From IMG/VR virus record IMGVR_UViG_3300023196_001233, positions 1 through 25,107 of that record: a DNA stretch of 25,107 nt; one strand, written 5' to 3'. The position numbers and the translations under genes were made by a program. The notes under the pieces were generated by a model. The model did no database searches and was not told the origin of the DNA. It saw only the letters and a list, made by a program, of their open reading frames with translations. The stretch is from a virus. Positions 10,184-20,734 of the stretch are shown one piece after another (positions within the stretch are counted from its first letter, which is position 1; every line of letters starts with the position of its first letter).

Positions 10184-11119
10184 ATGGAACATTTATTATG
10201 GGTGGAAAAGTATCGGCCATCTAAAGTAGAAGATTGTGTCCTTCCGGATGCAATCAAATCTACTTTTCAGGAGTATGTCAATAGAAAAGAAATACCGAAC
10301 TTATTATTATCAGGTAGTGCCGGTGTTGGTAAAACTACAATCGCAAAAGCACTTTGTGAAGAAGTTGGTTGTGATTATATTATCATCAATGGTTCTGATG
10401 AGTCTGGTATTGATGTTCTTCGTAACAAAATCAAAAACTATGCTTCTTCGGTCTCCCTCATGGGTGGTCGCAAAGTTGTCATCATTGACGAAGCAGACTA
10501 TCTAAATCCAAATTCAACTCAACCTGCCATGCGTGGTGCGATTGAGGAGTTTGCGTCCAACTGTTCTTTTATCTTTACATGTAATTTCAAGAATCGTATT
10601 ATTGATCCGATTCATTCTCGTTGCACTGTTATTGATTTCAAAATCAATGGCCAAAAGGCCAAGATGGCAGGACAATTCTTCAAACGAGTTGAGTGGATCC
10701 TTGGCCAAGAATCGGTTGCCTACGACAAAGAAGTTGTGGCTGCTGTTATCACAAAGCATTTTCCAGACAACCGTAGAATTCTTAATGAACTTCAAAGATA
10801 TGCGGTGGGAGGTACTATTGATAAAGGTATACTTGCTTCTGTTAGTGATATACAACTTGCTGATTTACTTGCCGCACTTAAAGCAAAAGATTTCGCTTCG
10901 GCAAGAAAATGGGTCACCAACAACCTTGACAATGATCCGTCCAGAATATTTAGAAAGTTATATGATTCTTTATATGAGTCCCTCAAAGCACCATCGGTAC
11001 CCCAATTAGTTTTAATACTTGCAAGATATCAATACCAGGCCGCTTTCGTGGCTGATGCTGAAATCAATTTGATTGCTTGTTTAACTGAAATTATGGTGGA
11101 TTGTTCCTTTAAGGATTAA
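10184..11119 (+). CDS. 44: Clamp loader large subunit gp44
   Basis: gp44 is the AAA+ ATPase that, with gp62, opens the gp45 ring and loads it at primer ends. The 311-residue protein starts with WVEKYRPSKVEDCVLP, the classical clamp-loader opening. It has Walker A GSAGVGKTT (44-52), Walker B VVIIDEAD (98-105), sensor 1 around TCNFKNR and the SRC arginine-finger motif at 145-147. T4 gp44 is 319 residues. A strong GGGAG precedes the ATG. Its partner gp62 is separated from it by an antisense homing endonuclease gene, whose stop overlaps the gp44 3' end by 11 bases. Confidence 0.96.
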   Translation: MEHLLWVEKYRPSKVEDCVLPDAIKSTFQEYVNRKEIPNLLLSGSAGVGKTTIAKALCEEVGCDYIIINGSDESGIDVLRNKIKNYASSVSLMGGRKVVIIDEADYLNPNSTQPAMRGAIEEFASNCSFIFTCNFKNRIIDPIHSRCTVIDFKINGQKAKMAGQFFKRVEWILGQESVAYDKEVVAAVITKHFPDNRRILNELQRYAVGGTIDKGILASVSDIQLADLLAALKAKDFASARKWVTNNLDNDPSRIFRKLYDSLYESLKAPSVPQLVLILARYQYQAAFVADAEINLIACLTEIMVDCSFKD

Positions 11120-11738
11120 GTTGTTTTATAATATAACGAGAGAGTCCTGTTTCTTTCATAGCCTGTTTTATTGATATATATTTTTTATTATTGATTATTA
11201 CAGGTTTAGAAGTATCTCTCCCGTTTATTTTACCTTTACGCATTTTCGACCATTTAATTTTTTGTTCTCTGGTGTGATTTGGTTTGTTTATTATATTTTG
11301 TGATTGTCTAGTTTTTGATATTTTTTGTTTTGTTGTTTTTGAAAAAGTTCTTCCTTTTTTCCAATCGGTATAATTGTCAATTTCTAAAATATCTATAAAT
11401 TTATTTTGTTTACCATTTGTAATCCATATTCTATTTTGACCATTAGGAAAACCTGAATTATTTTTGTTTATGAAATCTTTTCTTTTAGATGCGTTCATTC
11501 TTGTTAAAACTTTTTGTTCCCAACATCTAGCTTTATACGAATTGATAAAGGTTTTTCGTATTTCAAAAAGAAAGTCATCTTTTCCATATTTGTTTATTAG
11601 ATTTCTAACATACTTGGATGAAGTAAAGTATGATTTCCATAAATCTGTTGGATTACAATTTTTTGAATATCGTACACCATAATAATATTGTTTTGTTGTT
11701 TTACAATATATGAGATATGTGTATGGTAAATTTTTCAT
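11109..11738 (-). CDS. GIY-YIG homing endonuclease with NUMOD-type DNA-binding repeats
   Basis: A 209-residue protein on the minus strand. The N-terminal catalytic domain has YLIY (8-11) and YYYG (18-21) for the GIY and YIG elements, Arg23 and Glu74 in KARCWEQKVL as probable catalytic residues. Two NUMOD3-like helices follow (FSKTTKQKISKTRQSQ and TREQKIKWSKMRKGK). The C-terminus is NUMOD1/helix-turn-helix-like: KPVIINNKKYISIKQAMKET and GLSRYIIKQ. Such free-standing endonucleases spread by cutting cognate sites in related phages. The gene is visibly more AT-rich than its neighbours, opposes the operon and separates the two clamp loader subunits, so it is probably a late insertion. No good ribosome-binding site is visible upstream of its ATG. 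Confidence 0.88.
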   Translation of the reverse strand: MKNLPYTYLIYCKTTKQYYYGVRYSKNCNPTDLWKSYFTSSKYVRNLINKYGKDDFLFEIRKTFINSYKARCWEQKVLTRMNASKRKDFINKNNSGFPNGQNRIWITNGKQNKFIDILEIDNYTDWKKGRTFSKTTKQKISKTRQSQNIINKPNHTREQKIKWSKMRKGKINGRDTSKPVIINNKKYISIKQAMKETGLSRYIIKQLNP

Positions 11739-15558: not shown

Positions 15559-15720
15559 TACTGTTGAGAAACAGCAAGTTTGTGCCGATGCAATAAATTA
15601 GGCATCCCCGTAGTCGGTAAGCGGGAACCATGCGGAGTGTAATAGTACGATTTGAGATACCCTCTTAGGTTAGATGAGCATAGCATCCCTCCGCTCCAAA
15701 TTTTATTTAAAGGACATATT
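15559..15720 (+). promoter_or_regulatory. Structured leader or small RNA, about 160 nt
   Basis: No gene fits here. A first hairpin CTGTT/AACAG with a GAGA loop (15560-15573) is followed by GATGC (15587-15591), which can pair with GCATC at 15602-15606 or with a second GCATC at 15683-15687. Other stems are CCCG/CGGG (15607-15625) and a closing helix GCGGAG/CTCCGC (15632-15637 with 15689-15694) followed by TCCA. The two alternative partners for GATGC are compatible with a switching leader. AAAGGA and the ATG of the small gene follow. No known riboswitch was recognised. Confidence 0.5.
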
Positions 15721-15885
15721 ATGGCTGCAGTGAAAAGTAAAAAGAAAAATCCAATGTTGACCAAAAATGGTAAACAAAGATTAGGTCCTTTGAATGTTGA
15801 GCAGCTGACTAAATTGTTAGATGGCGCTCGTAAGAAAAACAGACCTAAAATTGAAAAACGTATTGCTGTAATTCAAGCTCGTTAA
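15721..15885 (+). CDS. Small basic hypothetical protein
   Basis: A 54-residue protein beginning MAAVKSKKKNPMLTKNGKQR, with a following LNVEQLTKLLDGARKKNRPK helix. The ATG after AAAGGA is used; an upstream in-frame start would run through the structured leader and is rejected. The highly basic N-terminus and short amphipathic helix suggest nucleic-acid binding. It overlaps the next gene by one base (TAATG). No family recognised. Confidence 0.68.
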   Translation: MAAVKSKKKNPMLTKNGKQRLGPLNVEQLTKLLDGARKKNRPKIEKRIAVIQAR

Positions 15886-15998
15886 TGTCTGCTAATACTA
15901 CTCCTTCATGGGGTAGAATGTTGACAAAAAAAGAATTATTAGATTTACTTGCCCGTATCGAAGCAAAAGGTAAAGCAAGAAAAGATAAAGAGAAGTGA
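15885..15998 (+). CDS. 37-residue hypothetical protein ahead of tRNA-Gly
   Basis: A short frame starting on the last base of the previous stop: MSANTTPSWGRMLTKKELLD, then a basic helix with LLARIEAKGKARKDKEK. Like its neighbour it combines a leucine-rich helix with a lysine-rich end. Its stop is five bases before tRNA-Gly, so gene and tRNA share a transcript. The coupling argues that it is translated; function unknown. Confidence 0.58.
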   Translation: MSANTTPSWGRMLTKKELLDLLARIEAKGKARKDKEK

Positions 15999-16003
15999 GA
16001 TTT

Positions 16004-16077
16004 GCGGGATTAGTTTAATGGTAAAACTACAGGTTTCCAACCTGTTGTTGTCAGTTCGATTCTGTCATCCCGCTCCA
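16004..16077 (+). tRNA. tRNA-Gly (TCC anticodon)
   Basis: A 74-nt cloverleaf: acceptor GCGGGAT/ATCCCGC, discriminator T as usual for bacterial tRNA-Gly, encoded CCA. Anticodon stem ACAGG/CCTGT with loop TTTCCAA (anticodon TCC), T-loop TTCGATT. The T-stem GTCAG/CTGTC has a U50-U64 mismatch, the same position that is mismatched in the first CAU tRNA. Confidence 0.94.
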
Positions 16078-16472
16078 GAAACAGAGGTGCCATGGCTATG
16101 TTATTCAATCCCTAGAATATTATCCACAATTTGGCGAAAAATAGGATAAGAGGTCAAGTGTCTTAAACTATCCTCATAAATCATGAGATAGGATTGTCGT
16201 CCTAAGTTAGAAAGACACAAGGTTCTTTGTTTAGGGACAGAGAACATTGTTGAGAATGTGAGAGAAAGAATAAGCAATCCTAACTGTTAAGTAAGTTCCG
16301 ATCCTTGTCAAATCAACCTATGATCTAGGAAGTGTAGAATGCTAATGCTACAACGATGCGATTGAGGAGAGATCAAAGCAATGGCCACGTTAAGTGACAC
16401 AGGCGAGCACCTCTTAAACATATAACAGTATTCTCAACAATGACTATATACTATTTTGATTAAAAGATAATT
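16078..16472 (+). ncRNA. Gene-free 395-nt stretch, candidate structured RNA
   Basis: No credible reading frame is present, yet the stretch is dense in long complementary segments. These are TAAGAGGT/ACCTCTTA (16147-16154 with 16409-16416), TAGGATTG/CAATCCTA (16189-16196 with 16275-16282), GTGTCTT/AAGACAC (16158-16164 with 16212-16218) and a 10-bp hairpin GTTCTTTGTT/GACAGAGAAC with loop TAGG (16222-16245). There is also a 13-bp pair CATTGTTGAGAAT/ATTCTCAACAATG (16245-16257 with 16430-16442) that crosses the first one and so implies a pseudoknot, plus TTCCGATC/GATC-ta-GGAA and TGTAG/CTACA hairpins (about 16295-16352). I could not match tmRNA, RNase P RNA, 6S RNA or a group I intron core. It directly follows tRNA-Gly and ends at groES. 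Confidence 0.5.
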
Positions 16473-16730
16473 ATGAATTTGAAACCACTAAAAGATAAGA
16501 TTCTCATTTCCCGTATTGCAGCAGAAAAAGAAACAGCGTCTGGAATTATTCTGAAATCTTCAGATGGTCCTGATAGAGCATTAGTAGAAGCTCTTGCTGA
16601 TAATATTGATGAAGTTGAGATTGGTGATGAAATTCTTATTAACTGGAACGGAGCAGTTGCTGTTTCAGGTAAAGAAACCGATAAAGAATTTTATGTTGTT
16701 AATATTAAACACGTTATTTTAAGATTTTAA
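16473..16730 (+). CDS. GroES-like co-chaperonin (gp31 functional analogue)
   Basis: An 85-residue protein with the GroES layout: MNLKPLKDKILISRI first strand, a mobile-loop region EKETASGIILKSSDG around residues 18-32 that would contact GroEL, GDEILINWNGA, and the closing EFYVVNIKHVILRF strand. It is shorter than host GroES (about 97 aa) and lacks much of the roof hairpin; T4 gp31 is a diverged member of the same fold, needed to fold the major capsid protein with host GroEL. The ribosome-binding site is weak (AAAAG). It follows the 395-nt RNA candidate, which may be its leader. Confidence 0.88.
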   Translation: MNLKPLKDKILISRIAAEKETASGIILKSSDGPDRALVEALADNIDEVEIGDEILINWNGAVAVSGKETDKEFYVVNIKHVILRF

Positions 16731-16736
16731 TCTTTT

Positions 16737-17282
16737 ATGTTAAAAATTTGTTCCAAGTGTTCTATAGAATTTGAGGATACTAGTCCTTGGGGTAAATCTT
16801 TTTGTTCTAGAAAATGTGCCAATTCTAGAATACAAACTGAAGAAATAAGAAAAAAGAAAAGCAAATCTGCGAAAAAGTTTTTTTCTGAAAATGGTCATCC
16901 TATGAAAGGTAAACCAGGTAGAATTCACACAGAAGAAGATAAACAAAAAATTAAAAATGGTGTATTGGATAGACTTAAAAAGATAGGTCATATCAACAGA
17001 ACACCAGAACAGATGAAATTGAAGAATAGGATTGGTGTTAGTAAATATAGAGCTAGACTTTTGAACGCTATACAACCTGATTCAGATATGAATTTAATTA
17101 AAAAGATTTTTGAATATTGTCCACAAGGTCATGAAGTAGATCATATTGTGGCTTTGTCTGTGGGTGGAAAACACCACCAGGATAATTTACAATATTTACC
17201 TGAAAAAGAAAATCAAAGAAAAAATAAGTATAAAAAATACAATGAATCTCTCATAATTCGTTGGCAAGATTTGATAAATTAA
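16737..17282 (+). CDS. HNH homing endonuclease
   Basis: A 181-residue protein with an N-terminal zinc-ribbon-like knuckle (Cys5, Cys8, Cys23, Cys27), a NUMOD3-like basic helix region (GRIHTEEDKQKIKNG) and a C-terminal HNH nuclease: EVDHIVALSVGG (133-144), DNLQYLPEKENQRKNK. Asp135-His136 and Asn150 are the likely catalytic and metal residues. The gene begins six bases after groES and ends five bases before a tRNA. Like the GIY-YIG gene it is an intergenic selfish element of the kind common in T4-like phages; its cognate site is probably in a nearby gene of related phages. Confidence 0.9.
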   Translation: MLKICSKCSIEFEDTSPWGKSFCSRKCANSRIQTEEIRKKKSKSAKKFFSENGHPMKGKPGRIHTEEDKQKIKNGVLDRLKKIGHINRTPEQMKLKNRIGVSKYRARLLNAIQPDSDMNLIKKIFEYCPQGHEVDHIVALSVGGKHHQDNLQYLPEKENQRKNKYKKYNESLIIRWQDLIN

Positions 17283-18193: not shown

Positions 18194-20734
18194 TTGAGTT
18201 CATTCTACACAAACGTACAAAGCCTCGGTGGTAATATACTCTACCGAGGCATTAAAAACGGTCAAAAGATTAAAGCAAAGATTGAATATTCTCCTTCACT
18301 CTATATGCCTGCGACCAAAATTCAAGAAATAAAATTCAGAAATCTTGAAGGTGAACCACTTCAACAGAAAATCTTTGGCAACATTCGTGAAGCCAGAGAT
18401 TACATCAAGCAATTTGAGAATGTTTCTGGTGGTCCAACAATTCACGGCCAAACTCGTTTTGAGTATGCTTATATTGCTGACCAACATACTGGTATGGTTG
18501 ATTATGATTTCGATAAAGTATCTATTGCAGTAATCGATATCGAAGTGGGTTCGGAAAATGGATTTCCTGACCCATATCAAGCAAATGAACCTATCACAGC
18601 AATCGCCATCAAATATCTCAATGGTGAGATTTATGTGTTTGGTTGTGGTGAATATGAAACTCAAGGCAAAGAGATTTATGTAAAATGTAAAGATGAATAT
18701 TCTTTATGTAAACAATTTATGTCTTTGTGGTCAGAAAAATGTCCTGATATTATTACTGGTTGGAATACCAAGTTCTTTGATATACCCTATCTTGTAAATC
18801 GTTTTCGTAAAATTCTTGGAGAAGATGCAACTAAGAAACTATCTCCGTGGAATTATATAACAGAACGTAAAACTAATACACATGGCCGTGAACTAATTGC
18901 CTACAGTTTGGTTGGTGTTGAATCTCTTGATTACATTGAACTGTATAAGTGGTATGCTCCTGGTGGTAAGTCACAAGAATCGTATCGTTTAGATGCTATT
19001 GCTCAAGTTGAATTGGGTAAAGGTAAAATCTCATATGATGAATATGATAATCTACATTCACTCTATCGATTAAACTATCAAAAGTTTATTGAATACAACA
19101 TTGTTGACGTTGAGTTGATTGTTGAGTTGGAAGAAAAGTTAAAGTTGTTAGAACTTGGTGTAACTTTGGCTTACGACACCAAAACAAACTTTGAAGATAT
19201 CTTTGCTCAAACTCGTATGTGGGATTCTTTGACATATGCCTATTTGTTTGAAAAGAATATCATCGTACCTCCTCGTATCACCAAAGAAAAAGATGGAATG
19301 TTTGAAGGTGCTTATGTTAAAGTACCACAAACAGGATTACATGATTGGGTTGCTTCGTTTGACTTGAACTCATTGTATCCACATTTGATTATGCAGTATA
19401 ACATTTCACCAGAAACTTTGATTGAACCAGAAAACTATACGGATGAAATGCGAAGTATCTTATCTCAAGGTGTATCGGTAGACAAGATGTTAACTAAGTC
19501 TGTTGACCTTTCTAGATTGAAAGATGCAACGATTACACCAAACGGACAATTCTTTCGAACAGACATACAAGGTTTCTTGCCTAAGATGATGGAAGAAATG
19601 TATACAGACCGGTCTAAATTCAAGAAATTGATGTTGAAGGCTAAACAAGAATATGAAAACGAATCGAATGAAAGTAAGAAATATGAAATTGATAAACTGG
19701 TTGCAAAGTATAACAACATCCAACTGGCCAAGAAAGTTTCCCTTAATTCTGCTTATGGTGCTCTTGGTAGCCAATATTTCCGTTTTTATGATTTACGAAT
19801 GGCCCTTGGTGTCACTACTGCTGGACAATTAAGTATTCGTTGGATTGAGGCAAAGATTAATTCATATATGAATAAGTTATTAGATTCTAATGAAGATTAT
19901 GTAATTGCCTCCGACACAGATTCAATCTATTTACGTATGGGTGAATTGGTTGATAAATTTATTAAAGATAAATCAGACAAACTCAAAGTAATTCAATTTA
20001 TGGATAAAGTCTGTGAAGATAAATTACAACCATTCATTGATAAATCTTATGTTGAACTTGCTGATTATGCGCATGCGTATGACCAAAAGATGCAGATGAA
20101 ACGAGAAGGTCTATCCAATAAAGGAATATGGACTGCCAAGAAACGATACATTCTAAATGTATACAACAATGAAGGTGTTCAATATAACGAACCACAGATG
20201 AAGGTGATGGGTCTGGAGATGATTAAATCTTCTACACCATCTGCCATTCGTGATAAGATGAAAGAGGCTATTCTATTGATGGTGAACGGAACACAAGAAG
20301 ATATCCACAACTTTATTGCCGACTTTAGAACAGAGTTCAAACAGTTACCTGTTGAGGAGATTTCTTTTCCTCGTGGACTCAATGGCCTAAATACCTATTC
20401 TGATTCGTTGTCGTTATATAAAAAAGGAACACCAATCCATGTGAAAGGTGCTATTCTTTATAATCATAACTTGAAACAGAAGAATTTAACCAAGAAATAT
20501 CCACTCATACAAGAAGGTGAAAAGGTCAAGTTCACTTACCTTAAAATGCCTAATCCATTCAAAGATACCGTCATATCGTATCCATCTCGTTTACCAAAAG
20601 AGTTTGAATTACAAGACTATATCGATTACGATATGCAATTCAATAAAGCATTTTTAGAACCGATTAAAGTTATTTTGGATTGTATGAAGTGGTCAACAGA
20701 AAAAACCAGTTCAATAGAGGACTTCTTCACATGA
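18194..20734 (+). CDS. 43: Replicative DNA polymerase gp43 (family B)
   Basis: The phage replicative polymerase with 3'-5' proofreading. The 846-residue protein has exonuclease motif I DIEVG (Asp115, Glu117), motif II around NTKFFDIPYL and motif III EYNIVDVELI. Polymerase motif A is DLNSLYP (Asp390), motif B KKVSLNSAYGALG (about 513-525) and motif C SDTDSIY (Asp574, Asp576). The last residues SSIEDFF form a clamp-binding tail like the end of T4 gp43. The start is TTG at 18194: its product MSSFYTNVQSLGGNILYRGI lines up with the first residues of T4 gp43, and no ATG fits. T4 gp43 is 898 residues. The stop overlaps the membrane-protein start by four bases. Confidence 0.96.
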   Translation: MSSFYTNVQSLGGNILYRGIKNGQKIKAKIEYSPSLYMPATKIQEIKFRNLEGEPLQQKIFGNIREARDYIKQFENVSGGPTIHGQTRFEYAYIADQHTGMVDYDFDKVSIAVIDIEVGSENGFPDPYQANEPITAIAIKYLNGEIYVFGCGEYETQGKEIYVKCKDEYSLCKQFMSLWSEKCPDIITGWNTKFFDIPYLVNRFRKILGEDATKKLSPWNYITERKTNTHGRELIAYSLVGVESLDYIELYKWYAPGGKSQESYRLDAIAQVELGKGKISYDEYDNLHSLYRLNYQKFIEYNIVDVELIVELEEKLKLLELGVTLAYDTKTNFEDIFAQTRMWDSLTYAYLFEKNIIVPPRITKEKDGMFEGAYVKVPQTGLHDWVASFDLNSLYPHLIMQYNISPETLIEPENYTDEMRSILSQGVSVDKMLTKSVDLSRLKDATITPNGQFFRTDIQGFLPKMMEEMYTDRSKFKKLMLKAKQEYENESNESKKYEIDKLVAKYNNIQLAKKVSLNSAYGALGSQYFRFYDLRMALGVTTAGQLSIRWIEAKINSYMNKLLDSNEDYVIASDTDSIYLRMGELVDKFIKDKSDKLKVIQFMDKVCEDKLQPFIDKSYVELADYAHAYDQKMQMKREGLSNKGIWTAKKRYILNVYNNEGVQYNEPQMKVMGLEMIKSSTPSAIRDKMKEAILLMVNGTQEDIHNFIADFRTEFKQLPVEEISFPRGLNGLNTYSDSLSLYKKGTPIHVKGAILYNHNLKQKNLTKKYPLIQEGEKVKFTYLKMPNPFKDTVISYPSRLPKEFELQDYIDYDMQFNKAFLEPIKVILDCMKWSTEKTSSIEDFFT

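Follow-up and report, generated by a model that had tools for sequence, protein, structure and literature searches.

The tmRNA, which is present in some phages, is a structured RNA of 300-400 nt with pseudoknots. RNA C and RNA D of phage T4 (rnaC/rnaD, species 1 and 2) are small RNAs located beside a tRNA in the tRNA cluster; they are transcribed from this region and their role is unknown (PMC3014915, PMC9697503). GOLLD and ROOL are RNAs of phages and prophages which occur near tRNA islands, in the case of ROOL often, and form RNA cages (PMC12286853). The RNA described here belongs to a previously unlisted, intricately folded family that joins this small set of phage RNAs beside tRNAs. It lies within a phage tRNA cluster and is co-directional with the tRNAs, a placement comparable to T4 RNA C/D, and is likewise close to phage tRNA islands, comparable to GOLLD and ROOL.

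The window, i.e. the whole stretch of 25,107 nt that was analysed (IMG/VR record IMGVR_UViG_3300023196_001233), is a 25.1-kb fragment of a T4-like phage with a family B DNA polymerase at 18194-20734. This polymerase is about 50% identical to cyanophage polymerases among the named phages and 69-83% identical to those of 80 IMG/VR contigs. Between a tRNA-Gly (UCC) with encoded CCA (16004-16077, + strand) and a Cpn10/GroES-like ORF (16473-16727), the first gene on the 3' side, 395 bases (16078-16472) are free of genes, as the first-pass annotation had pointed out; the ORFs overlapping this stretch are short and without support. The same annotation had proposed a candidate new structured phage RNA at this site. 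This proposal was borne out by covariation in homologues, the absence from Rfam 15 and the embedding among tRNAs, while the fold had to be corrected.

Several other features were observed in the surroundings. An HNH endonuclease gene is located downstream of the RNA at 16737-17279, and an ORF on the other strand at 11109-11738 resembles a GIY-YIG endonuclease, as judged by eye only; both probably encode homing endonucleases of the replication/tRNA region. Two small lysine-rich ORFs at 15721-15882 (54 aa) and 15885-15995 (37 aa) showed no match in Pfam/PHROG. The first one was seen again close to the RNA in 20 of 44 loci, and matching DNA is also present in relatives lacking the RNA. At 15630-15698, a conserved tRNA-like RNA was found, for which neither ARAGORN nor the Rfam tRNA model makes a call. 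It comprises an anticodon loop AUACCCU, a non-canonical T-loop AGCAUAG and an encoded CCA, and its acceptor and anticodon stems vary in step in the aligned homologous copies of eight relatives (the L110 row being at wrong coordinates).

A comparison of the stretch with the 80 polymerase-defined relatives revealed four clear homologues of part of it, each of which begins at window position ~16244, in three cases immediately after a tRNA. Therefore, the first 166 nt represent an extra module. The stretch is not one uniform element of 395 nt and consists of two parts, a conserved core of 198 nt (module B, 16245-16442, + strand) and an optional 5' module A (16078-16245, + strand). In contrast to the polymerase, the GroES-like protein found no relatives when used as search bait. 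Scanning the viral collection with each of two patterns from the conserved ends, TCTTAAACANNNAACAGTAT and AATCCYAACTGTTARGG, resulted in 43 and 56 contigs, respectively. Both motifs were present at a distance of 115-174 nt in 54 copies, 39 of them distinct. With two further scans and a calibrated covariance model of module B (R1, window match of 169.4 bits), the number increased to 48 distinct full-length copies in viral contigs, plus the truncated copy L126; as membership in the pattern scans depends on the conserved motifs, more divergent members were probably missed. For module A, a second calibrated model (R2) matched the window with 170.6 bits.

Module B is enclosed by the terminal helix P1 (16245-16257/16430-16442, + strand), a pairing of 13 bp that had already been listed in the first-pass annotation. 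P1 showed 99.1% paired cells, and its two strands covary, with two-sided, compensatory changes in 10 of 13 pairs. The hairpin P2 (16278-16293) has the sequence UCCY-AACUGUUA-RGGA, with a single C-U mismatch (16279/16292) in the window itself. Its loop ACUGUU (16283-16288) is complementary to AACAGU (16424-16429), which is located directly before the 3' strand of P1, and an H-type pseudoknot is predicted from the conservation and complementarity of the two strands. In 43 sequences, 100% of its cells are paired with only one-sided G-U changes; apart from these it is near-invariant, so that covariation cannot test it. P3 (16303-16367, 96.2% paired) closes a three-way junction with the hairpins P4 (16317-16329, 94.1%) and P5 (16334-16351, 91.7%), all three showing two-sided changes. 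Adjoining P3, the helix P6 (16368-16372/16410-16414, 95.8% paired, two-sided changes in 5 of 5 pairs) encloses a subdomain that is variable in length and sequence. Altogether, 97.4% of the cells in 43 aligned copies are paired, and 27 of 40 pairs comprise two-sided changes. The amount of two-sided cells was 254 compared to 70.8 +/- 9.4 for shuffles and 10-25 for slid controls, a count that leans towards the structure, since the alignment was fitted to it by the model. A plain MAFFT alignment with no structure fitted gave 181 two-sided cells compared to 57.5 after shuffling, the structure having been drawn by eye on those sequences.

For module A, an alignment of 11 copies showed 90.3% paired cells in PA1/PA2, PA4 and PA5, and 38 two-sided cells compared to 14 after shuffling. 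The stem-loops PA1/PA2 (16088-16136, alignment helices 1 and 2) present a conserved loop UCCCUA (16109-16114), and the hairpin PA4 (16189-16204) has the core GGAUYGUCGUCC. PA5 (16222-16245), a hairpin also noticed in the first pass, is 97% paired with both-sided changes at 4 of 9 pairs and has the invariant loop UUAGGGA. Within this loop, UAGGGA (16232-16237) is complementary to UCCCUA of the PA2 loop, and only one pair is broken in L113. A kissing loop, either within or between molecules, is predicted from this complementarity; the loops are conserved, which places it beyond a test by covariation. Every module A that was found abuts a module B on its 3' side, while module B occurs without module A in about two thirds of the copies. 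Therefore, module A is regarded as an optional domain on the 5' side of one and the same RNA.

All four pairings named in the first-pass annotation are present in the sequence. The 8-bp pair 16147-16154/16409-16416 was not retained, as its 3' strand (16410-16414) forms P6 in module B and most copies have no module A. The halves of the second 8-bp pair (16189-16196/16275-16282) are located in the separate hairpins PA4 and P2, and the pair is broken without compensation in L147, L148, L154 and L127. The pseudoknot that had been suggested by the crossing of the 13-bp pair with the outer 8-bp pair was rejected by the alignments; the predicted ACUGUU/AACAGU pseudoknot is a different one.

Variants of this arrangement were also observed. 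In L147 (1064-1108) and the near-identical L149 and L150, module B is collapsed to the P1 hairpin next to a complete module A. Other structured-looking spacers lie between the tRNA and module B in L106, L129, L093 and L101, possibly as alternative 5' modules; those of L093 and L101 have GGTCAGATACC in common. Upstream of module A in L154 (about 280-355), and similarly in L148, a tRNA-like gene of non-canonical type was found, with CAU in the anticodon loop, a T-loop AGCGUUA and a CCA end; ARAGORN makes no call for it in L148.

The folding energy of the + strand was only modestly better than that of shuffled sequence (z of -1.87, 3 of 100 shuffles as good), compared to a z of -1.26 for the - strand. 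Energy alone would not establish an RNA, and it is the comparative evidence that decides. Based on this evidence, the stretch is almost certainly a conserved structured RNA. It showed no match in Rfam 15 at E up to 10 (cmscan, window 15900-16600), and the same holds true for the homologous loci. Searches at both gathering and permissive thresholds yielded nothing beyond tRNAs, chance matches and, in L129, a tmRNA. The earlier finding of no tmRNA, RNase P RNA, 6S or group I intron signatures was upheld, since none of the respective Rfam models matched and ARAGORN found no tmRNA here.

The RNA is carried by many uncultured tailed phages. The tmRNA of L129 (6755-7157, - strand), a contig that also carries the new RNA, is of the permuted betaproteobacterial type, which hints at Betaproteobacteria as hosts in at least some cases. 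A scan of the prokaryote genomes of 84,980 species with the 5' motif pattern gave just two chance matches in apparent coding regions, and blastn of 50,697 phage records, including the named phages, with several members gave only tRNA or chance matches. No paper describing the RNA was found in the literature searched, with many subscription papers outside the reach of this search. Compared to the polymerase of the window, the polymerases of the carriers range from 79-86% identity through 51% down to split polymerases at 28-33%; the family therefore crosses phage lineages. Only 4 of the 80 close polymerase relatives contain the RNA (many of those loci being truncated), and three of the long relatives (G017-G019, 136-164 kb) are without it. 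The RNA is therefore accessory and not essential. In all 15 phage records with a full-length module B, of up to 236 kb, it is present in a single copy.

All 43 scored copies of module B are located in tRNA arrays, with the tRNAs of the locus on the strand of the RNA and none opposite. In 18 of these 43 copies, the end of the upstream tRNA lies at most 7 nt from the start of module B, and 13 of the 18 share the CA of the tRNA's CCA; many relatives without module A have a module B that starts at the CCA of a tRNA, and in the window module A begins directly after the tRNA-Gly. The next tRNA follows within 17 nt in at least 23 of 43 copies, so that co-transcription with the GroES-like gene, as suggested initially, does not hold as a general feature. 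Module B without module A is flush between two tRNAs in L141 (6 and 6 nt), L096 (-2 and 6 nt) and L107 (-2 and 5 nt). The slot between two tRNAs is filled almost exactly in L146 without module A, and likewise in L165 and L169 with both modules. Where the RNA is flush with tRNAs on both sides, there is no space left for a promoter, a terminator or a leader function. A leader function is therefore excluded as a general role, and excision by the tRNA-processing enzymes, given what is known of RNase P and of the 3'-end processing of tRNAs, would be the simplest biogenesis. The genes that recur in the neighbourhood belong to the shared T4-like tRNA/replication region, and no dedicated partner gene was found among them.

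Taking together the structure, the family with its modularity, the single copy, and the placement and orientation among tRNAs, all of which the comparisons show, we consider it probable that the tailed phages release a trans-acting RNA from their tRNA transcripts, with transcription, excision and stability inferred. The RNA would be transcribed within a polycistronic transcript of the tRNA array and cut out along with the flanking tRNAs. Its 5' end would result from the 3' maturation of the upstream tRNA; its 3' end would, in many phages, be generated when RNase P cleaves at the tRNA that follows. The 13-bp terminal helix, the pseudoknot and the junction domain could then fold the RNA into a compact, stable particle, and module A would be a further, optional domain of this molecule. 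During infection, this RNA may act in trans, the most likely modes being an action on the translation/tRNA machinery or a role as a particle, made of RNA only or of RNA and protein; a takeover of translation/tRNAs and an RNA-only particle are the leading guesses for its role. That it represents a categorically new class of lytic-phage RNA, in which RNA alone (catalytic or a self-assembling particle) acts on host translation/tRNAs and consists of a core that folds independently and of swappable 5' modules, is a tentative idea and rather unlikely. Several observations speak against a released trans-acting RNA: compared to shuffled sequence, the fold has only a marginal advantage, there is too little variation in the pseudoknot and in the kissing loop for a test by covariation, the RNA is accessory, and its carriers are uncultured contigs, with no named phage or host genome found to contain it.

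As a special case of such a trans-acting RNA, a cage or ring assembled from RNA only, analogous to GOLLD and ROOL, appears unlikely. These RNAs also sit near phage tRNA islands, the new RNA combines a conserved domain on the 3' side with a 5' domain that is variable or optional, as has been described for GOLLD (PMC12286853), and the conserved complementary loops of module A could act between molecules. However, no Rfam family including GOLLD and ROOL was matched at E up to 10, and the length of the RNA is half of that of GOLLD or less. It is also improbable that the RNA serves the tRNA array in processing or stability, i.e. as a structured spacer by which RNases are guided or tRNA ends protected, and which is inert after excision. 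While its constant location within tRNA arrays, often flush with tRNAs, and the collapsed copies L147, L149 and L150, which retain little beyond the P1 hairpin of module B, would fit a spacer, a spacer would need no conserved pseudoknot, three-way junction or invariant loops, would not be limited to one copy where an array comprises 20 or more tRNAs, and would not be missing from most relatives.

An origin from a mobile element, as a retron ncRNA (with P1 resembling a1/a2), the relic of a homing intron or an omega-RNA, is very improbable. P1 resembles terminal inverted repeats, the sites beside different tRNAs suggest recombination, and an HNH endonuclease gene lies downstream. Against this, the arms of P1 covary as an RNA helix, the RNA is single-copy and placed after the CCA of a tRNA and not within a gene, and no Rfam intron or HEARO match was obtained. 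A reverse transcriptase (RVT_1) was detected in none of 16 carrier records, with the positive controls detected, and a retron ncRNA was rejected on this basis. A role as cis-regulatory leader for the GroES-like gene that follows can be dismissed as hardly tenable, since the order of RNA and GroES-like gene in the window and in L005 is opposed by the copies followed closely by a tRNA, by the lack of a conserved position before one protein gene and by the occurrence of module B in other gene contexts.

Compared to the known systems, the new RNA differs from tmRNA in having neither a tRNA-like domain nor a tag ORF. ROOL is larger than the new RNA and unrelated in sequence and structure according to the covariance models. 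Members of GOLLD often exceed 800 nt, and membership in either family was rejected by cmscan with E up to 10 for the window region 15900-16600 and the homologous loci. T4 RNA C/D comprise 119-139 nt without the A/B domains, and homology was rejected as neither R1 nor R2 matches the T4 locus (L153). Altogether, the new RNA is like T4 RNA C/D and GOLLD/ROOL in its placement and, by the homology tests performed, is a member of none of them. The RNA is small enough for cryo-EM, probing and trans-expression tests to be practical. With its fold explicit, and with 48 copies and two calibrated models available, this compact family offers a smaller and more tractable case of the puzzle common to T4 RNA C/D, GOLLD/ROOL and the new RNA, namely for what reason phages maintain structured RNAs next to their tRNAs.
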